NCBI GenBank assembly: GCA_031127185.1
Contig: JARIET010000010.1
Span: 1-20,638 of the forward strand
Direction of reading: 5' to 3'
Length of the DNA: 20,638 bases
From: Gemmatimonadota bacterium
Lineage (GTDB): Bacteria; Gemmatimonadota; Gemmatimonadetes; Gemmatimonadales; Gemmatimonadaceae
Shown here: one piece after another, positions 10,781 through 20,638 of the stretch
Position numbering within the stretch: position 1 is the stretch's first letter
How the letters are laid out: every line of letters starts with the position of its first letter
Made by a program: the position numbers and the translations under genes
The notes under the pieces: model-generated
The model's database searches: none
Told to the model about the DNA's origin: nothing
What the model saw: the letters and a program-made list of their open reading frames with translations, nothing else

Positions 10781-13624
10781 CTAGGCCTTGGCCTCGAGCC
10801 AGTTGTCCCCGATTCCAATATCGACAACGAGGGGAACCCGAAGCTCCACCGCGGTGGTCATGCAACGGTTCACCACCTCGCTGAGTGTATCGATTTCGGT
10901 TGGCGGCGATTCGAACACGAGCTCGTCGTGCACCTGCAGCAACATCCGGCTTTCGAGTCCGCGAGCCTTCAGCTCAGCGTGCAGCCGGATCATTGCGACC
11001 TTGATCAGGTCGGCTGCAGAACCCTGAATAGGGGAGTTCTGTGCGAGTCGTTCGCCAAACGCGCGGATATTGAAGTTTCGGTCATTGATTTCGGGAATGA
11101 AGCGGCGGCGCCCCAGGATCGTCTCGACATAGCCCCGTTCGCGCGCGGTCGCGACCATCTGATCCAGAAAGGCACGCACGCCAGCGAACCGCGTGAAGTA
11201 GGTATCAATGAATTCGCGCGCCTCGGCATGTTCAACCTTGATTTGACGCGAGAGCGCGTGAGCCCCCTGGCCGTAGATCGTGGCAAAGTTGATTGTCTTT
11301 GCCCGAGATCGCATTTCGCCGGTCACATCAGCCAGCGGCACCCCGAAGATGATTGAGGCGGTTTGGCGGTGGATATCGCCGCCCGCACGAAATGCCTCGA
11401 CAAAGGCCGGATCTCCGGAGAGGTGTGCGAGCAGGCGGAGCTCCACCTGCGAGTAGTCGGCGGCCAACAGTTTCCAGCCCGTCCGCGGAATGAACCCCCG
11501 GCGAATCGCTTTCCCCAGTTCGCGACGAATGGGAATGTTCTGCAGGTTCGGATCGTGTGATGAAAGGCGACCCGTAGCCGCAACAGTCTGGCTGTACGAC
11601 GTGTGGATACGACCGGTTGACGGATTCACCAGCGCCGGAAGCGTGTCGAGATAGGTGCTCTCGAGTTTTGCAAACTCGCGGTATTCCATGATCAGCGCCG
11701 GGAGCACGTGCCCCTCGTCGGCCAATTGCTGGAGTACCGATGCGTCCGTGCTTGGCCCTGTTGATGTCTTCTTCCGCACCGGCAGCTGCATTCGCTCGAA
11801 CAGGATCGCGGCGAGTTGTCGGTTGGAGTTCACATTGAATCGTTCGCCGGCTTGTTCGTAGATGGCTTCTTCCGAAGCCACGCGTTCCTTGGCAAACCGT
11901 GTCTTGAGCGATTGGAACCAGGGGAGGTCGATCGAAACCCCCGTCCATTCCATATCTGCCAGTACTGACAGCAGGGGAAGTTCAACCTCATGAAGCAGCT
12001 TCGCCGCACCCGCCTCCGTCACGCGTGGCTCAAGCAGCACGCGCAGGGCGAGGCTCACGTCGGCGTCTGCCGCCGAGTACGACGTGGCGGCGGCAACCGG
12101 CACGCGGTCGAATGACACCTGTTGCTTTCCCTTGCCGGCAACTTCGTCATACGTCGTCATTGCCCGTTGCAAGAACTCAATTGACAACGCATCGAGCGCG
12201 TGCGACCGACGACCTGGATCCAGCAGGTAGCTTGCCAACATCGAGTCAAAATCCACGCCGGCGAGGACAAGGCCTTCGCGACGCAACACGAGCAGGTCGT
12301 ACTTGATATTGTGTCCCGTCTTGGCAACGGACGAATCGGCCAGAAGGGCGCGCAGTGGTTCGAGTTCCGGCGACAGCGGGTCGGGCAGGTTCCGCACTGT
12401 CGTTTCTCCCGCTGCACTGACCTCACCTCCAAACCCAGAACCGAGGTCCTGCTGGTCCGCTGCTGCAGAGCGGTGGCGGAACGGGAGGTAGAACGCCGTG
12501 CCCGGCCCGGTCGCGATGGAGAGTCCAACAAGCCGGGCGCGCATCGGATTCACGACCGGCGGCGCGCCAGCATCGAGCATCGTTTCCGTGTCCACCGCGA
12601 TCGAGCCGGCTGCGCGAGCCGCGGCAACGACGCGAGCTACGCCTTCGAGTGTGTCGATCGTTTCATATGTCAGAGTCGGCGGTTGTGGCGTCGTGTCAGC
12701 CGGGTCAGACGGCATTCCACCGGCGCGCGTCGCAGCTTCTTGCGCGTGGGTGCGAAACTCCAGGCGAATGAACAGGTCCCGAAGCTGCGGCCAATTGGGT
12801 TCGCGCACCTTGAGTTGTTCGAGATCCAGCTGCATCGGCAGGTCTGTGCGGATCGTCACGAGGTCTTTTGACATCCGGCCAACATCCGCGTTCGCCGCAA
12901 GCGCCGTCCGGGCCCGCGTGGGCTCAACCTCGTCGATGTGGCTCAGGATTTCCTCGAGCGGTCCCCATTTCCCGATGAGCGCGAGGGCGGTCTTATCACC
13001 GATTCCCTTGACGCCGGGGACGTTATCTGAACTGTCACCAAGCAGGGCGAGGTAGTCGACGACGCGATTCGCCGGAACTCCCAGCCGTTCGGCAGCATTC
13101 GACTCGTCATACCATTTTTCGGTCGTTCGGCCCGGGCGCCCGTGCCACGGATTCAGGATGCTGACCCCAGGACCCACCATCTGTACAAAGTCCTTGTCGC
13201 CCGAAACAATCACCGCCTGCAAACCACGCTCTGCTGCCTGCCGGGCGAGCGTTCCAATCACATCATCCGCCTCAAATCCGTCGAGTGACAGGATCGGCAC
13301 GTGATAGCCCGCGAGGATCTCCGATACTCGTTCTATCCCAGTATCGAAATCGGCCTGTTGCTCCGGCTCAAGCCGCTCGCGTGTTGCCTTGTATTCGGGG
13401 TACCGCTCATGCCGGAACGAGAGCCCGGCGTCGTGCACCCAGGCGAGGTATTCGGGGTGGTGCTTGTCGATCAACCGGCGCACGAACTCGAGCGCCCCTC
13501 TCGCAATCGCGGTGTTCTCGCCCCGACTGCTCACAAGCTGCTGGTCCGCGAGAGCGAAGAACGCCCTGTAGATCAGTGCATATCCGTCAACGAGAAAGAC
13601 CCGTCCGCGTTCCGGCGCCGTCAT
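10781..13624 (-). CDS. polA: DNA polymerase I
   Basis: Product of 947 residues with three domains. The 5'-3' flap nuclease is at about 1-290 (VFLVDGYALIYRAFFAL, SGDKDFVQMV, LLGDSSDNVPGVKGIGDKTA). The 3'-5' proofreading domain is at about 325-530 and keeps its acidic motifs: Exo I in AVDTETMLD, Exo II in GHNIKYDLL, and Exo III as YSAAD. The family A polymerase follows, with DPNLQNIP, DYSQVELRLLAHLSGD (motif A), the O-helix region RSRAKTINFATIYGQGAHAL, and QVHDELVFE (motif C, about 897-905). Proofreading is therefore probably active, unlike in Taq-type enzymes. It fills gaps after RNA primer removal and excision repair. It starts 10 bases after the GWxTD gene and is probably its co-transcribed partner. 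Confidence 0.97.
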   Translation of the reverse strand: MTAPERGRVFLVDGYALIYRAFFALADQQLVSSRGENTAIARGALEFVRRLIDKHHPEYLAWVHDAGLSFRHERYPEYKATRERLEPEQQADFDTGIERVSEILAGYHVPILSLDGFEADDVIGTLARQAAERGLQAVIVSGDKDFVQMVGPGVSILNPWHGRPGRTTEKWYDESNAAERLGVPANRVVDYLALLGDSSDNVPGVKGIGDKTALALIGKWGPLEEILSHIDEVEPTRARTALAANADVGRMSKDLVTIRTDLPMQLDLEQLKVREPNWPQLRDLFIRLEFRTHAQEAATRAGGMPSDPADTTPQPPTLTYETIDTLEGVARVVAAARAAGSIAVDTETMLDAGAPPVVNPMRARLVGLSIATGPGTAFYLPFRHRSAAADQQDLGSGFGGEVSAAGETTVRNLPDPLSPELEPLRALLADSSVAKTGHNIKYDLLVLRREGLVLAGVDFDSMLASYLLDPGRRSHALDALSIEFLQRAMTTYDEVAGKGKQQVSFDRVPVAAATSYSAADADVSLALRVLLEPRVTEAGAAKLLHEVELPLLSVLADMEWTGVSIDLPWFQSLKTRFAKERVASEEAIYEQAGERFNVNSNRQLAAILFERMQLPVRKKTSTGPSTDASVLQQLADEGHVLPALIMEYREFAKLESTYLDTLPALVNPSTGRIHTSYSQTVAATGRLSSHDPNLQNIPIRRELGKAIRRGFIPRTGWKLLAADYSQVELRLLAHLSGDPAFVEAFRAGGDIHRQTASIIFGVPLADVTGEMRSRAKTINFATIYGQGAHALSRQIKVEHAEAREFIDTYFTRFAGVRAFLDQMVATARERGYVETILGRRRFIPEINDRNFNIRAFGERLAQNSPIQGSAADLIKVAMIRLHAELKARGLESRMLLQVHDELVFESPPTEIDTLSEVVNRCMTTAVELRVPLVVDIGIGDNWLEAKA

Positions 13625-13634
13625 CGCCGAGGCG

Positions 13635-15020
13635 CTACTGCACTCGCTGGCGCCATGCGGTCATGAAATCCGATTCACTGGTGGTCGTGAGCTTCCATCG
13701 CCCGAATCCATTCTGGTCATAGAAGGTCAGCACGATGCTGTAGCGGCGGTACTCCCAGACCTGCTGTCGCCCCTGAGTATTGAGTCCGCGGCCCATCTGC
13801 TCGTAAATCTGGTCGGGACGCCCGAGTCCGAGCATCACCTTGCCCCGGTCCGTTTGCCAGCCCGGCAACGTTTCTTCCCGGAAACGGGTGTTCGCCTCGA
13901 GCAGGCGGGCAAAATAGTCGCGTAGTGCGTCCGACTGCCCGGACGGATCTGTGTACTCGCGCACAAACGCGGCCCACGCGGCCGGGCGATATTCTGCCGC
14001 GGTGTCCTTGAGTGCCTGGAGACGATAGATGGGCGCAAACCACCGGAGGTAGCTCAGCATTTCTTCGAATGATGCGAGCGGAAGATCCGCTCCGAAGCCA
14101 ACGAAGAATGGAGCGCGGGTGGTATCCGCGGCCCGCGGCGTCCAAACGGACAGTGTCATCGCGCCGATGCCAACGCGGCTGATAGGCACGTTCAACACGC
14201 CCGCATGCAGGCCTCCACGTGCGGGAATCGTAACGCTGTCGCGGTAGAGTCCGCGCCCATTCTCTGCACGAACGATGTACTGCAGCAAGCGCGGGCCGCT
14301 CTCCCCGCCATACGCCTCGACAACGAACGGAACGATAGAATCGCGTCCGAACGTGGCGCCGCCCGTTGGATTGGCAATGACCTGTGGGAGTGTGCTCAGG
14401 CGGGTGCGCATTCCGGCGCGGGCAAAAGATACGGGGGTCGAAAGCCCTGATGTGCCGAGTGTGGGAACCGCCAGGGTCGCGCCGTCTTCAGCCGTGCGTG
14501 CGCTCCCATCATCTCGCACCGCTACGGCAAAGTCGTACCGTCCCGGAGGCAGGGTGATGATCTCTTCGTACAGGACGCTTTCGTCAGTCCGCGTCGTCTC
14601 CTTGAAGCTCGCAACAACCACATTCTCGTGCGCCTCGATACTCCGAACCGATTCTGCTCCGCTCTTCACGCCAATGGTGATGGTGTACCCCGCGCGAAAG
14701 CGATCATTTTCGCGGGCAAAGGTCAGCGCGGCATTCGAAAGGGAAATCGCGACCAGCACGTGCGTGGAATCCGGCGATGGCGTCGCAAAGAACGAGACAC
14801 TGCCCACGAACGGCATCGGCGCGCCGCGCGCCAGAAGGCCGAGTCGTCGAAAAAGTCCGATCGCGTCATACTGGGGTCCGAGCGCCGTGCGCGCCGACGG
14901 CTCAGGACCAGGAGCGCGTGCCGCTGGAGGAGCTCCCGTGCGGCTCCCCCCGCAGGCAGCGGCGGCTCCGAGTAATAAAGCCGGGAGCAGCGCGCGAACA
15001 CGTCGCGCCAATTGGCGCAT
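13635..15020 (-). CDS. GWxTD-domain lipoprotein
   Basis: Product of about 461 residues. The N-terminal LPALLLGAAAAC forms a lipoprotein signal with Cys at the processing site, so the protein should be anchored in a membrane facing the periplasm. A long beta-rich region follows (SFFATPSPDSTHVLVAISL, LPPGRYDFAVAVRD). The C-terminal ~120 residues carry the GWxTD domain (LPGWQTDRGKVMLGLGRPDQ, then VWEYRRYSIVLTFYDQNGFG). This domain is frequent in Acidobacteria and Gemmatimonadota and has no assigned function. ATG 15020 was chosen because AAAGGG precedes it at good spacing and it yields a compact charged n-region (MRQLARRVR). In-frame starts at 15038 and 15071 are possible. polA follows after only 10 bases. 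The region upstream to the divergent kinase is 107 bases and should hold both promoters. Confidence 0.85.
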   Translation of the reverse strand: MRQLARRVRALLPALLLGAAAACGGSRTGAPPAARAPGPEPSARTALGPQYDAIGLFRRLGLLARGAPMPFVGSVSFFATPSPDSTHVLVAISLSNAALTFARENDRFRAGYTITIGVKSGAESVRSIEAHENVVVASFKETTRTDESVLYEEIITLPPGRYDFAVAVRDDGSARTAEDGATLAVPTLGTSGLSTPVSFARAGMRTRLSTLPQVIANPTGGATFGRDSIVPFVVEAYGGESGPRLLQYIVRAENGRGLYRDSVTIPARGGLHAGVLNVPISRVGIGAMTLSVWTPRAADTTRAPFFVGFGADLPLASFEEMLSYLRWFAPIYRLQALKDTAAEYRPAAWAAFVREYTDPSGQSDALRDYFARLLEANTRFREETLPGWQTDRGKVMLGLGRPDQIYEQMGRGLNTQGRQQVWEYRRYSIVLTFYDQNGFGRWKLTTTSESDFMTAWRQRVQ

Positions 15021-15127
15021 CACCGCCCTTTGTTCCATCGCTTTCTGATTCATTCCGTCTACATACCCCAAAGTTCGACCAACCGTTTCGCTTGCTCCAG
15101 CCTGTTCCGGTGCTTAGGTTCGCCCCG

Positions 15128-16045
15128 GTGTCACGTGATCCACTCGCAGGAACCAATGTCGCAGGATACTCCCTTGAGCAGCGGGTCGGCGAAGGGGGGA
15201 CCGCTACTGTTTATAAGGCCACCCATGGCCAGCATGGAACCGTTGCCCTGAAGGTCCTGCGCGACAAGCTTCGCCAAGACCGGACCGCCGTGGCCCGCTT
15301 CCTTCGTGAAGCCTCTTTCGGAACCCGCGTCCAGCATCCCAATGTCGTGCGGACGATTGAACTCGGCCAGTCGCCCGAGGGACTTCACTACCTCGCCATT
15401 GAGTGGGCGGCCGGCGAGTTGCTCGAAGGATATGCCAAGCGCTGCGCCCCGCTGCCGGTCGACGAAGTGGCTACGATCGTCACTCAAATCGGTGACGCCG
15501 TTCACGCCGCCCACGCCAATGGAATCGTGCACCGGGATCTCAAGCCTGAAAACTTGATGTACGACCCGGTGACCCGCAACGTCAAACTGCTCGATTTCGG
15601 CATTGCCACATCAACCGACGTCGCGCCCGACGAGCGGTTGACTCGCGCCGGGTTTTTTGTCGGCACGCTGATGTATGTCGCCCCCGAGGCCCTCAGCGGT
15701 GAGATCGTCACTCCTGCGGCTGACCAATAAAGCTTGGCCTGTATTGCGTATTTGCTCCTCACGGGCACACTGCCTTACGCCGCCAAGTCTCCACGCGAGA
15801 TGTTCACACAGCTGCTTTCCCAGCCGCCGATCGCCCTGAACAAGGCAAAGCCCACGCTCGCCTACGGGAACTCCGTCGAAGCGGTGGTCATGCGCGGCCT
15901 CGCGAAAGATCCGAAGGCGCGCTATGCAAGCGTCCTGGAATTCGCGAGCGCCCTCGCCGCTGCGCTATCGACGGACGCCAAGCCGGCTGCGGATGACTCC
16001 GGAATTTTTTCGCGCATGAAGGGCATGTTCAAGGGAAAGAGCTAG
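15128..16045 (+). pseudogene. Hanks-type Ser/Thr protein kinase interrupted by one in-frame TAA
   Basis: Read through, the frame encodes 305 residues of a PknB-like kinase: glycine loop GEGGTATVY, VALK with catalytic K42, HRDLKPEN (H135-R136-D137), DFG (D156), APE (E187) and subdomain IX D199-Q200. Codon 201 (15728-15730) is TAA. The same frame then continues perfectly as SLACIAYLLLTG through the rest of the C-lobe to a TAG at 16043. The stop occupies the usual Tyr/Trp of 'DxYSLG', so one base change from TAC or TAT explains it. No other damage is visible. The 200-residue truncated product would lack helices F to I. There is no membrane segment. The C-terminus GIFSRMKGMFKGKS is a short basic amphipathic tail. 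GTG 15128 was chosen because TAGG precedes it by about 9 bases. GTG 15110 is the alternative. Its 3' end overlaps the histidine kinase gene by 17 bases. Confidence 0.85.
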
Positions 16046-17069
16046 GCCCTTCCACCTGACCCGCATCCACGGGCAGCCACAGTGTAAAAACCGAACCACT
16101 GCCCGGCACACTCTCCACGGAGATGTCGCCGTCCAGCAGGCGCGCGAGTCGTCGGGAGATCGCAAGCCCCAGCCCTGTTCCTCGACGTTGTGAGTCCGCG
16201 CGCGACCCGGCATTCACCTGCTCAAATTCTTCGAAGATCCGGTCGAGATCGGCCGCGGCGATTCCCAGCCCCGTATCGGTGATCTGCACCGCCATCCACG
16301 AGGTATATGCCAACAGCAGCGGTCGGCGGCCGGTGCTCGCGGTGACACGCGCCAGGTCCGCATCGCCCACGTGTGTTGCTCGTACGCCAATCGTTCCGCT
16401 CGACGTGAACTTGATGGCATTTCCTATCAGGTTGACCAGAATGCGGCGCAAATGTCCGCTGTCCGTCACCAATCGTGGCAATGTTGCCGGCACCGTGATC
16501 GCAAACGCCAGCCCGCGCTGCGCAGCAAGCGGCTCCATTTCTGACACAACATCTATGATGAATGGCCGAAGTCGAATCGGCTCCGGGTGCACCTCGAGAC
16601 GGCCGGCAGCCATTCTCGCGAGGTCCAGCACTTGCTCCACCAGCTCCCGCAGGTGGTTTGCTGATGACTCAATGCGTTCGACGGGACCGCGCTGTCGGGG
16701 TGTCAGCTCCCCGTACGATCCGTCGCGGAGCAGGTCCACGAATCCGACGATAGCCGAAAGCGGTGTGCGCAATTCGTGCGAAACGCTTCCCAGAAACTCC
16801 GCCTTCGCCCGGTTGGCGCGGTAGAGCTCTCCAGAGAGCTGTTCCAGCTCGACCGAGCGTTCTTCGATGTGCCGCGCCTGCCGTCGTTCGAAGACCAGAA
16901 CGGCGGCGAGCGCTACCATGGCGAGCGCGAGCGCCACCCAAAGCGCCAGCCTGACCGGCCAGGGGGCCGCAGCGGCAACGTAGTGGTCTGCGATCCACAG
17001 TCCCGCAGCGATCCCCAGTGAGGCGGTTCCCAGCGCCACAGCCGACGGTCGCACCGCTTGGCCACTCAT
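16029..17069 (-). CDS. Sensor histidine kinase (orphan)
   Basis: Product of 346 residues. Two membrane helices near the N-terminus (about 10-28 and 40-60) are joined by a short loop, so there is almost no periplasmic sensor. A helical linker (QARHIEERSVELEQLSGELY) leads to the HisKA domain with phospho-acceptor H98 in GSVSHELRTPLSA. The HATPase domain has N box NLIGNAIKFT, G1 DTGLGI, F box IFEEFEQV and G2 GTGLGLAISRRLA. All catalytic boxes are intact. No response regulator is adjacent, so the partner is elsewhere. ATG 17069 is preferred over the TTG four codons upstream. It is divergent from pyrE across 67 bases and convergent with the interrupted kinase, overlapping it by 17 bases. Confidence 0.92.
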   Translation of the reverse strand: MSGQAVRPSAVALGTASLGIAAGLWIADHYVAAAAPWPVRLALWVALALAMVALAAVLVFERRQARHIEERSVELEQLSGELYRANRAKAEFLGSVSHELRTPLSAIVGFVDLLRDGSYGELTPRQRGPVERIESSANHLRELVEQVLDLARMAAGRLEVHPEPIRLRPFIIDVVSEMEPLAAQRGLAFAITVPATLPRLVTDSGHLRRILVNLIGNAIKFTSSGTIGVRATHVGDADLARVTASTGRRPLLLAYTSWMAVQITDTGLGIAAADLDRIFEEFEQVNAGSRADSQRRGTGLGLAISRRLARLLDGDISVESVPGSGSVFTLWLPVDAGQVEGPSSFP

Positions 17070-17100
17070 TGCTGAACCCAAACGCCGTGCACGTGTTGCA

Positions 17101-17129
17101 TTGACGGCAAAAGTATCACCCGGTAACCT
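17101..17129 (+). promoter_or_regulatory. candidate pyrE promoter giving a leaderless transcript
   Basis: TTGACG (17101-17106) is followed by a 17-base spacer and TAACCT (17124-17129), which keeps the T, A and final T of the -10 element. Initiation 7 to 8 bases later would fall at or next to GTG 17137. No Shine-Dalgarno sequence is visible before that GTG, which is consistent with a leaderless mRNA. Confidence 0.4.
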
Positions 17130-17136
17130 CCGCGTC

Positions 17137-17694
17137 GTGACTGCTCATCAACGCCTTCTTTCGCTTCTTGCCGAGCGCTCTGCGCGCCGCGGTTCGTTTA
17201 CCCTCGCGTCGGGTCGCCAATCGTCGGTGTATATCGACGCGCGCCTCACGACGATGAGCCCGGATGGACTCGCCACGATAGGGCCGCTCGCCCTGCAACA
17301 CCTCGCAGACGCCAGTCTCACACCGGACGCCGTGGGCGGCCTGACACTGGGAGCTGATCCGGTCTCCTATGCCATTGCCTACGCCAGCGCCCTTGCCGGC
17401 GCCCCGATCCGCGCATTCACGGTTCGCAAGGAAGCCAAGTCACACGGAACGGGCCGCTTGATTGAAGGTCCGTTTCGTTCGGGCGACTCGGTTGTTGTGA
17501 TCGAGGATGTGATCACAACCGGCGGCTCGGCGCTGCGCGCCATTGATGCCGTTCAGAAAGCCGGCGCAACCGTTATTGGAGTCCTCACCGTCGTGGATCG
17601 CGAAGAGGGCGGGCGCGAAGCCATTCTGGCCACCACTCACGTACCGATCATATGCCTTACCAGAGCCGCCGATATCATGGCCCTTGTTCCCTAA
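17137..17694 (+). CDS. pyrE: Orotate phosphoribosyltransferase
   Basis: Product of 185 residues. It converts orotate and PRPP to orotidine monophosphate in de novo pyrimidine synthesis. Visible signatures are FTLASGRQSSVYIDAR near the N-terminus (substrate-facing segment), the flexible catalytic loop FTVRKEAKSHGTGRLIEG with its lysines, and the PRPP-binding motif VVVIEDVITTGGSA. The end TRAADIMALVP is compact. GTG 17137 begins the expected N-terminus (TAHQRLLSLLAERSA). An in-frame TTG at 17101 would add 12 unlikely residues and coincides with the -35 element. No other pyrimidine gene is adjacent. The stop codon overlaps the end of the opposite-strand regulator by four bases. Confidence 0.95.
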   Translation: MTAHQRLLSLLAERSARRGSFTLASGRQSSVYIDARLTTMSPDGLATIGPLALQHLADASLTPDAVGGLTLGADPVSYAIAYASALAGAPIRAFTVRKEAKSHGTGRLIEGPFRSGDSVVVIEDVITTGGSALRAIDAVQKAGATVIGVLTVVDREEGGREAILATTHVPIICLTRAADIMALVP

Positions 17695-18581
17695 GATGCG
17701 CGCTTGAGCGCTGGCGCCAGCTCCGCGCCCGTCACCCGACCGCGCATGGTGAGGGGCGACATCATTATCAAGCGCTCGCGATACGGAGTGATCAGCAACA
17801 CGCGAAAATACCGCATCATCGTGACTCCGTTGTACTGGCGACGGAATTCTCCGGCGGACATGTGCATGTACGTCTGGATGTGCCGGCCGAAGCTCTGCGG
17901 CGATGAGTGACCGAGGTGTGTCGCGACGTCAGCTATCGTCAGGCCAGGGTTCTCAAAGAGTCGCGCCGCGCGCACGAGTCCCGCGAACACGATGAACTGT
18001 TTTGGCGCCGGCACGCGCGCGCGGAAGAATCGGCTTACCAACGTCGACGGCAGCACACCCAAGGTCCGAGCCAGCGCCTGAACTGTGCGTGCACCCGTGT
18101 ACCCGTCAAAGAGGGCTTCGGCAAAGGCCAGCAGGTCCTTCGGTGCACCGCTCAGTTCGTCGAGCAATTCCCGCAATGCCTGCTGGTCTCGCTCGCGCAC
18201 AACGTCTCGTGCCAGCGTGCTTCGCAAGCGTCCCCAACCCGCGGGGGTACGAATGTCTATGACCTGATGCACACCACACCCCCCGATCGCAATGAGGTCA
18301 GTGGCGGAGGGGATTCCCTTGGGACTCAGGAGCACCAGCGCGGGCACCCGAGGGAACTCCCTCACCATCCGCCGTGTCGGCGAAAGCTCTGCAGGGGTGC
18401 AACGCGTGGTCGACAACAGGATTGCACTGACCCTCCGTTCTCGAAGATCTCGGAGGACCTCGGCGACCGAGTCCCGGTGGACGGTTCGATACAAGCCGGC
18501 ACCGGCTCGCTCTATGTCGGCGCGCTCGGCTGGATCGACAACGGTTGCGACAGGACCGATATACTGCGGCGTGGATGGCAT
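17691..18581 (-). CDS. AraC-type transcriptional regulator with receiver-like N-terminal domain
   Basis: Product of 296 residues. The N-terminal ~115 residues show an alternating beta/alpha pattern like a response-regulator receiver (ATVVDPAERADIERAG, SAILLSTTRC, PALVLLSPKG), but the expected phospho-acceptor Asp is Ser in AILLSTT. The C-terminal half carries a two-part AraC HTH domain: first HTH around TVQALARTLGVLPSTLVSRF and second around LTIADVATHLGHSSPQSFGR, followed by HMSAGEFRRQY. About 45 further residues (VTMMRYFRVLLITPYRERL...) extend past the usual end. GAGGAG lies just upstream of the ATG. Targets are unknown. It is divergent from rnpB across about 178 bases, so it might act on that region or on itself. 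Overlaps the pyrE stop by four bases. Confidence 0.82.
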   Translation of the reverse strand: MPSTPQYIGPVATVVDPAERADIERAGAGLYRTVHRDSVAEVLRDLRERRVSAILLSTTRCTPAELSPTRRMVREFPRVPALVLLSPKGIPSATDLIAIGGCGVHQVIDIRTPAGWGRLRSTLARDVVRERDQQALRELLDELSGAPKDLLAFAEALFDGYTGARTVQALARTLGVLPSTLVSRFFRARVPAPKQFIVFAGLVRAARLFENPGLTIADVATHLGHSSPQSFGRHIQTYMHMSAGEFRRQYNGVTMMRYFRVLLITPYRERLIMMSPLTMRGRVTGAELAPALKRAS

Positions 18582-18749
18582 GCGCTCCTCGATGAGTAGG
18601 GAAGACTCGTGAGCGACAAGCCTTTCCCGGACGGGTCATCGGGGTGTCATTGGCACGGCTGTCAACAGGTTGCCGGTCGTCACCGGTGGAACGAAAGCGA
18701 TGTTGGGCGCTGGGGTTCCGCGCAGGCTGCACCGGATGCCGTGCGGGCA

Positions 18750-18755
18750 TACATT
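18750..18755 (+). promoter_or_regulatory. candidate -10 element for rnpB
   Basis: TACATT lies 5 bases upstream of the predicted RNase P RNA 5' end at 18760, the position expected for a -10 box. No convincing -35 is seen about 17 bases upstream. A 5-bp inverted repeat ATGCC/GGCAT (18736-18750) abuts the element. Confidence 0.35.
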
Positions 18756-18759
18756 TCGA

Positions 18760-19158
18760 GTGCGAGTTCTCCCGGCCGGACGGTCGCGGAACCTGTCGCG
18801 AGACGGGTTGCGAGGAAAGTCCGGGCTCCATGGACAGGCTGCCAGGTAACTCCTGGGCATCGTGGTAACACTGGTGACGGAAAGTGCCACAGAGACTAGA
18901 CCGCCCCGCGTTCGGAACCACGACCGCGAGGGCAAGGGTGAAAGGGTGGGGTAAGAGCCCACCGCACTCGTGGTAACACGGGTGGCAAGGCAAACCCCAG
19001 CCGGAGCAAGGCCGAATAGGCGGCGAGAAGCAGTCCTCTTCGACAAAGACGCCGCGGGTAGGCTGCTAGAGGGCGCGGGTGACCACGCTCCAAGAGAAAT
19101 GACCGTCAGAGGCTTCATGCTTCGACAGAACCCGGCTTATAGGCCGGGAGGCTCGCAC
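18760..19158 (+). ncRNA. rnpB: RNase P RNA (bacterial type A)
   Basis: This is the catalytic RNA that removes 5' leaders from tRNA precursors. The universal block GAGGAAAGTCCGGGCTCC is at 18812-18829 and the matching 3' block ACAGAACCCGGCTTAT at 19125-19140, which together build helix P4. Between them are other known core segments: GGTAAC after P5/P7, GGGTGAAAGGGTGGGGTAAGA, GGAGCAAGGCCGAATAGG and GGGTAGGCTGCT. Helix P1 fixes both ends: GTGCGAG and CTCCCGGCC at 18760-18777 pair with GGCCGGGAG and CTCGCAC at 19142-19158, giving 16 base pairs with one small internal bulge. Length is about 399 bases (E. coli 377). No terminator follows. The next gene starts inside it. Confidence 0.97.
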
Positions 19159-20013
19159 CTCTCCACTCGGCTCGCCGCGGTCCTCCTGCTGGCAACTGGG
19201 GCCTGTAGCGCGCCCATCCCGCGCCAGTCGCCGACTCCCACCGAGTCTCCCGTACCAGCTGCCACGCCGACGGTCCCCAACTCCTGGGTGCTTGCACGAG
19301 ATTTGCTCGCCCGGGAGTATCGCGTGGAGCAGACCGCGGAGATCTCCATTGCCACCGACTCTGGAACGTCGACCGAGACGTCAACATTGGTTGTTGCGGC
19401 TAGTGTTCGGTCAACGGCGGATGGCGGTGTCTCCGGGCTCGTGCGCTCCGCAAGCGTTCGAGCGGCAGGCGCGACTGAGGTTGGCTTCCCTGGCGTTGTG
19501 TTGCCCCTGGTTTTCTCGGGCACGCCTCCGTCCCGAGGAAGCCAACACCAGCTGACTGGGCGAAACGTTCCCGCCGACCCATGCCAATCGCCTTCACACG
19601 CGGTGCTTCGTTCGATCCGCGACCTCTTCGTGTCGCTGCCGGACACCTTGCGGCTTGGCACGACCTGGGCTGACTCCGGTCAATCGGACAGTTGTCGCGG
19701 CGGAGCACGATTGATCGGCAGCACAACCCGGCGATTCTCGGTGAGGAGTTACGAGGTGCACGACGGACGCCCGCAGCTGCTGGTCGATCACCAATCGACT
19801 TTTCGGTTGCGTGGAACGGCAACGCGGCGCGGCGACACGACCGTTGTTGATGGGCTCGGCTCGGGAAGTGGGGAGCTCACGATCGACGCAAACACCGGCG
19901 CCGTCGTGTCAATCACGGCGTCGGCATCGCTGGAGATTTCCGTCCGTGGCGCGGTACGGATGGAGCGCGCGCAACAGCTGCTTCGCACGCGTATTTTGCG
20001 GCCCGATCGCTAG
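19117..20013 (+). CDS. Hypothetical lipoprotein starting inside rnpB
   Basis: Product of about 298 residues. I do not recognise the family. A clear lipoprotein signal is present: hydrophobic LAAVLLLATGA then Cys, with charged STR just before it. A Pro/Ser/Thr-rich linker follows (PRQSPTPTESPVPAATPT), then a beta-rich domain with repeats of Ser/Thr and paired cysteines (DPCQ, DSCRGG). No in-frame ATG, GTG or TTG exists between 19120 and the lipobox, so the start must be ATG 19117 (preceded by AGAGG at 4-5 bases) or ATG 19099. Both are within the RNase P RNA. The n-region residues RQNPAYR are encoded by the invariant P4 strand. A start at the first downstream GTG (in SWVLARD) would lose the signal peptide. 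The stop codon overlaps dnaN by four bases (CTAG). Confidence 0.75.
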   Translation: MLRQNPAYRPGGSHLSTRLAAVLLLATGACSAPIPRQSPTPTESPVPAATPTVPNSWVLARDLLAREYRVEQTAEISIATDSGTSTETSTLVVAASVRSTADGGVSGLVRSASVRAAGATEVGFPGVVLPLVFSGTPPSRGSQHQLTGRNVPADPCQSPSHAVLRSIRDLFVSLPDTLRLGTTWADSGQSDSCRGGARLIGSTTRRFSVRSYEVHDGRPQLLVDHQSTFRLRGTATRRGDTTVVDGLGSGSGELTIDANTGAVVSITASASLEISVRGAVRMERAQQLLRTRILRPDR

Positions 20014-20638
20014 TCGACCAGCCTCAGCGGCATCAGCAGGCAGACATACGTCGCCGAGTCGGACCAGCCTTCCGGTTCGACGGTGGCCGCCCGCTCGGGC
20101 GCCTTGAAGCTCATTCGGACTTCGTCGGTCGGGAGAAACCGAAGTATCTCTAGCAGGTACGCTGCATTGAATCCAATATCGAGCGGATCTCCGGTGTAGC
20201 GAACCGGGAGTTCGTCCTGCGCTTCCCCAAGGTCCGGCGTGCTGACGCTGAACTTCAGCATCCCGCTATTGAATGAAAGCCGTATCCGGTGCGTCTGGTC
20301 CGATGCCACAACAGACATCCGCTTGAGCGCACTCGTGAGGGCCTGCCGATCCACGATGGCAACTTTATCGTTGTCCTTTGGGATGACCTGCTCGTAGCTC
20401 GGGTACGGACCTTCTATGAGGCGCGTATACACCGCGGTGAATGGAGACCTGAAGCCCAGGTGATTCTCTCCGTGTGCAACCTCGAGTTCCTCTTCGGCAG
20501 GAAAGAGCCTCCGAATCTGCTCCAGCGCCTTTGGCGGGATGATGAACTCGCTTGGTTTCCCCTTTCCTGCCTCAACTTTTGCCGGCACTTCCATTTTCGC
20601 GAGCCGATGTCCGTTGGTTGCAACCATTCGCATCTGAG
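20010..20638 (-). CDS. dnaN: DNA polymerase III beta subunit (sliding clamp), C-terminal part
   Basis: The frame runs off the right edge, so only the last ~209 residues are present (clamp domains 2-3). RMVATNGHRLA matches the conserved 'VATDGHRLA' element of the clamp. Further support comes from IEGPYPSYEQVIPK, IRLSFNSGMLKFSVSTPDLGEA, FNAAYLLEILRFL and the C-terminal YVCLLMPLRLVD, where MPLRL corresponds to the 'MPMRL' partner-binding end. The beta clamp is a dimeric ring that tethers replicative polymerase. dnaN usually follows dnaA at the origin, so dnaA is expected to the right of the window on the same strand. The stop is shared in CTAG with the convergent lipoprotein gene. Confidence 0.96.
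   Translation of the reverse strand, partial: QMRMVATNGHRLAKMEVPAKVEAGKGKPSEFIIPPKALEQIRRLFPAEEELEVAHGENHLGFRSPFTAVYTRLIEGPYPSYEQVIPKDNDKVAIVDRQALTSALKRMSVVASDQTHRIRLSFNSGMLKFSVSTPDLGEAQDELPVRYTGDPLDIGFNAAYLLEILRFLPTDEVRMSFKAPERAATVEPEGWSDSATYVCLLMPLRLVD

Follow-up and report, generated by a model that had tools for sequence, protein, structure and literature searches.

Overlapping genes at an RNase P locus have a precedent in Thermus, where rpmH and rnpA overlap so that two protein frames are read at the locus of the RNase P protein. The locus described here is likewise an RNase P locus with an unusual overlap by which two products are constrained, but here it is the gene for RNase P RNA (rnpB) that overlaps the gene of an unrelated lipoprotein. 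A further precedent is provided by dual-function bacterial sRNAs such as VcdRP and Spot 42, described as riboregulators with a small ORF within the regulatory sRNA, in which, as would be the case here, one RNA region is both functional RNA and mRNA. About ten such sRNAs are cited in the review PMC10339803, and the term RNase P does not occur in its main text. The present locus is unlike these sRNAs in that a catalytic housekeeping RNA would contribute no more than the start and n-region to a protein of 300 residues, and in that the two products would need different molecules. In ribosome profiling studies, rnpB is reported as not translated in S. meliloti (PMC10117765), is listed as poorly covered by ribosomes in E. 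coli O157 (PMC5331693) and, in C. jejuni, is among the few non-coding RNAs detected (PMC11955535). No protein gene starting in rnpB was recognised in the open-licence literature searched, judged by titles and the opening of abstracts. While overlapping genes and dual-use RNA are known, their combination with RNase P RNA, with the phase kept in six species, looks new within that literature.

The window, that is the whole 20,638-nucleotide stretch of DNA analysed, contains a full-length match to the RF00010 covariance model (model 1-367), which scores 285.8 bits against a gathering score of 100 and has both P4 and P1 formed. By sequence the RNA is a class A RNase P RNA with a predicted catalytic role, and the match is the only one to RF00010 in the genome assembly that contains the window (61% complete). 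A seven-pair extension carries the P1 stem 3 bases beyond the Rfam end, which fits the RNA end near 19158 proposed in a first-pass annotation of this DNA. When the strands of the extension were swapped among 15 congeners the native pairings had a mean of -14.9 and the swapped pairings a mean of -11.1 (sd 4.4); as only 2 of the 15 native pairings were better than all their swaps, this comparison is suggestive only.

Table 1. Features of the junction between rnpB and the lipoprotein gene in the window
Feature	Coordinates	Strand	Basis or detail
rnpB, class A RNase P RNA	18768-19155	+	RF00010 match, Rfam bounds
P1 outward extension, 5' strand GUGCGAG	18760-18766	+	co-folding, 7 pairs
P1 outward extension, 3' strand CUCGCAC, doubling as predicted signal-peptide codons	19152-19158	+	co-folding
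P19 hairpin	19108-19124	+	19108-19113 pairs with 19119-19124; loop 19114-19118
J2/4 and P4 3' strand, conserved, ACAGAACCCGGCTTA, read as RQNPAY	19125-19139	+
Predicted lipoprotein CDS (or from 19117)	19099-20013	+
ATG within rnpB, in the lipoprotein frame, candidate start common to the clade	19099-19101	+
Second in-frame ATG, at the P19 loop	19117-19119	+
AGAGG, Shine-Dalgarno-like, upstream of ATG 19117	19108-19112	+	duplex energy -5.8
Hydrophobic core LAAVLLLATGA and lipobox Cys (codon 19204-19206)	19171-19206	+

The gene that follows rnpB encodes an uncharacterised protein of ~300 residues. Its N-terminus is predicted to be that of a bacterial lipoprotein, with an Arg-rich n-region, the core LAAVLLLATGA and then Cys, the signal being called by a simple hydropathy rule. 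A strict lipobox is [LVI][ASTVI][GAS]C; the window reads T-G-A-C, and the Cys is invariant in all 20 homologues compared. As the first-pass annotation had proposed for the P4/P1 strand, the n-region, LRQNPAYRPGGS, is encoded by the J2/4-P4-P1 strand of the RNA. The protein has no Pfam match at E 0.001, no NCBIfam match at E 0.1 and no PDB sequence match at E 1, and the 20 homologues returned two stray single-member NCBIfam matches. The predicted structure is all-beta (pLDDT 85.8) and fold comparison gave low TM-scores and barrel-like matches; a MucB or LmcA-like lipid-binding fold was among the candidates weighed, with unrelated beta proteins as the yardstick. At its other end the lipoprotein frame converges with that of dnaN, the stop codons overlapping by 4 bases (20010-20013). 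A GWxTD protein is also encoded in the window and, together with related records, assigns it to Gemmatimonadota.

Four start codons precede the signal core in the lipoprotein frame, and all lie within rnpB: two GTGs deep in the RNA gene (offsets -185 and -173 relative to its Rfam 3' end), ATG 19099 and ATG 19117. The earlier claim that the starts giving a signal peptide, 19117 and 19099, lie in rnpB is thus confirmed. ATG, GTG and TTG are absent from this frame between the 3' end of rnpB and the core, and the next in-frame start after ATG 19117 is a GTG at offset +133, beyond the Cys codon. A hidden start of the gene's own was rejected for the window, as among the near-cognate codons sought just two CTGs occur between rnpB and the Cys, both within the hydrophobic core. 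A simple consensus scan found no + strand terminator-like site between the two genes, in agreement with the first-pass annotation, and the sole such site on that strand is at 19782, within the lipoprotein gene.

The two candidate starts differ in their setting. ATG 19099 forms the start of the P2 3' strand, a position at which an ATG occurs in 141/141 family loci searched (of 143), a count in which the few ATGs lying at 54-93 nt are perhaps different ones; the CAG motif that marks the other end of the measured interval is missing at two loci (G110 and G167). ATG 19117 occurs only in the window and in L154, a stretch identical to it, while 19099 is clade-wide. The first-pass annotation had placed the start codon in the conserved 3' strand of the RNA, but 19117 lies in the variable P19. 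The predicted Shine-Dalgarno pairing, computed against an anti-Shine-Dalgarno sequence, is weak for 19099 (-2.9 kcal/mol) and better for 19117 (-5.8, AGAGG). These energies decide nothing, since congeners with an ATG of their own span -3.8 to +1.3 kcal/mol. The start in the window would be either 19099 or 19117, and we choose neither.

To place the junction in its family, rnpB was sought in 179 genomes and matched in 148. The usable set comprised 143 loci from 142 of these 148 genomes, including two of the three copies in G175; partial rnpB matches led to the omission of G007, G012, G104, G180, G196 and G197, and some flanks end at contig ends (for example G192 and G199). The lipoprotein, sought with a profile built from an alignment of 20 homologues, was found at 113 of the 143 loci, and at 111 the start of its frame is at most 200 nt beyond rnpB, which argues that the pair is an old association. 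The start counts are made at the family level, with 37 order-level rnpB loci and G088 outside them. Among the 107 loci with a called signal, 100 have an ATG, GTG or TTG of their own between rnpB and the core by rule and 102 after correction; the 100 include G019, whose homologue is 1.86 kb away, and represent an upper bound because any ATG, GTG or TTG before the core was counted. The correction concerns G005, with a GTG 15 codons before its true Cys, and G052, with ATGs at +100 and +118, both of which the rule had scored as lacking a start. The five loci with no start after rnpB and before the core are the window (G000), G001, G003, G009 and G049, four of which fall in one clade. Six further loci had no signal call and are outside the 107 (G020, G043, G153, G178, G182 and G204); five have an ATG, GTG or TTG after rnpB, and no start is listed for G204, where the frame opens 536 nt downstream and contains masked letters. 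The closest comparison is with G002, G010, G011 and G014, of the same genus, which share the gene order and lipoprotein family of the window but, unlike it, have an ATG of their own that follows the Rfam end of rnpB by only 12 nt, such that no overlap is needed.

The survey also yielded several observations on rnpB itself. The RF00010 match is absent from all four genomes of genus g2 (G018, G051, G161 and G162; 80-97% complete) and from G016 (98% complete), reflecting a divergent RNase P RNA, loss at the filter or a missing region. In two congeners, G007 (contig C227) and G012 (contig C62), the partial match (model 20-222) ends 30 bases from the contig end, as if the RNA gene had broken the assemblies. 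G175 carries three different rnpB loci (contigs C24, C41 and C157), one of which matches the window, and is probably a mixed bin because a single MAG holds all three.

The clade consists of six species: the window, G001, G003, G004, G005 and G009. It is supported at 100/99 and 100/98 in two PolA trees, built without G010 and G012 (split genes), the second also without G035 and G020, which had very long branches in the first and are probably in the wrong frame. PolA of the clade members is 63-77% identical to that of the window. In all six the rnpB ATG is followed in phase by an unbroken lipoprotein frame, which reads M(T/I)(V/I)R...LRQNPAYR(P/L)G. The window, G001, G003 and G009 lack any ATG, GTG or TTG in the stretch between rnpB and the core. 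G005 has the GTG described above as a further possible start, and G004 an ATG 8 codons before the Cys, in our judgement too short a distance for an ordinary signal peptide. Relatives with a spacer and a start of their own, which the first-pass annotation would have taken as counter-evidence, therefore make up most of the family (102 of the 107 loci), but four of the six species of the clade are not among them. Near-cognate codons after rnpB are found only inside the core in the window, G001 and G049; G003 has an ATT between rnpB and the core, and G009 a GTG that falls within the core, 7 codons ahead of the Cys, and a CTG nearer rnpB. G049, the single genome of another genus in the set, also lacks a start of its own and reads the same RNA strand in a different frame, MTVRNSRSDRTRLIGR... 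Given the other genus and the other frame, it looks independent of the clade, and the overlap apparently arose twice, as judged from the sequences. G001, G003, G005 and G009 are MAGs whose records suggest an origin in lake or inland-sea water.

The L154 contig is identical to the window across the rnpB-lipoprotein junction. Over 12961-19798 of the window, 250-base bins are 72-92% identical to L154 as far as rnpB, within which the comparison switches abruptly to zero mismatches (18861-19798). Such a jump suggests that one of the two is a chimeric assembly or has recombined.

An open frame alone is weak evidence for use of the rnpB ATG, because the frame is also open to that codon in 23 of 103 non-clade loci, which have later starts as well. 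The case rests instead on the sequence of an intact, selected gene that has no other ordinary start, on phase and on a fixed ATG-to-CAG length. The distance from CAG to Cys in the clade is 22, 25, 25, 25, 26 and 32 codons, whole codons every time; the phases among the 100 own-start loci are 36:35:29. The ATG-to-CAG length, which spans P19, is 27 nt in all six clade members and 26, 26, 27, 28, 28, 28, 29, 29 and 34 nt in nine other congeners. On the PolA tree a hand count gave four length changes in 0.98 units of branch length among the other congeners versus none in 2.42 units within the clade (hand-worked conditional p about 0.007, rising to about 0.03 once the long branch of G004 is left out), and on a family-wide lipoprotein tree of 109 tips none of 38 length changes fell in the clade (p 0.044). 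All of these are modest p-values, obtained on approximate trees for a clade that was picked after the data had been seen. Within the clade 35 of 36 P19 cells are paired, and two pairs have changed on both sides among the six species. As frame and length are constant while P19 stays a covarying hairpin, RNA structure and reading frame are kept together.

The best explanation of the sequence data is probably that the spacer ahead of the lipoprotein gene disappeared and the gene took over an AUG of rnpB, so that each read-through transcript would end up as RNase P RNA or as mRNA. The spacer, with its own start codon, would have been lost in the ancestor of the water-dwelling clade, and the N-terminus of the lipoprotein would now be translated from an AUG inside rnpB. 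As no terminator was found between the two genes, we infer that transcription runs on from rnpB into the lipoprotein gene. In some molecules P2, P4 and P1 would close and 3' trimming near 19158 would yield RNase P RNA, cutting the frame; in others a ribosome would engage the AUG ahead of 3' strand pairing, which would commit the molecule to use as mRNA. With weak initiation at 19099 this second outcome would stay infrequent. Both the sequence and the relatives support the proposal of the first-pass annotation that a molecule matured into RNase P RNA can no longer be an intact mRNA.

The chief rival, possible but clearly the less probable reading, places a promoter inside rnpB that produces a dedicated lipoprotein mRNA; the start would still lie in rnpB DNA, with no competition for one molecule. 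This is compatible with all of the sequence evidence for the overlapping start, and the gene may once have had its own promoter, since most relatives have a spacer. A simple scan of 18500-20100, however, found no sigma-70-like promoter, a result tempered by the fact that promoters of the phylum may not fit that consensus. That the lipoprotein instead starts downstream of rnpB at a non-standard codon, its frame into rnpB being incidental, is decidedly unlikely. The ATT of G003, the CTG of G009 and the 23 non-clade loci that are open to the rnpB ATG despite later starts are consistent with this idea, but it is opposed by the restriction of near-cognates to the core in the window, G001 and G049, and by a P19 length that is fixed in the clade only.

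Mutual exclusion of the two uses on one molecule, an ATG at P2 and a Shine-Dalgarno-like site for 19117 within P19 would also suit a regulatory switch coupling the supply of RNase P RNA to lipoprotein synthesis. We consider such a switch unlikely, as the overlap is explained by compaction and 19117 is not common to the clade; the link between RNase P RNA supply and an envelope protein suggested in the first-pass annotation is unsupported here. It is similarly doubtful that rnpB precursors act as a bifunctional transcript in which closure of P2, P4 and P1, in competition with a ribosome at the rnpB AUG, decides the fate of each molecule, with unfolded or RnpA-starved RNase P RNA being read out as lipoprotein. 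Loss of the gene's own start codon might indicate that it is decaying and untranslated in the clade, which is very improbable in view of intact frames of 346-359 codons from stop to stop, pairwise differences that are highest at codon position 3 in 15/15 clade pairs, and the retention of signal core and Cys. An assembly error at the junction, which the jump in identity between the window and L154 from 72-92% to 100% inside rnpB might indicate, is the least probable of all, as the junction lies inside the identical part and G001, G003 and G009 share the architecture. The simplest evolutionary account of the captured AUG would thus be compaction, not a dedicated switch.

If the capture of an rnpB AUG is correct, a protein gene would, in several species, depend on sequence inside a universal catalytic RNA for both its start codon and its secretion signal. 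Annotation pipelines that avoid placing genes across RNA genes would be expected to truncate or drop such proteins. The locus would offer a clean test system in which RNA folding and translation compete on one transcript, and would illustrate how compaction may join a coding frame to a housekeeping RNA while selection continues to act on both.
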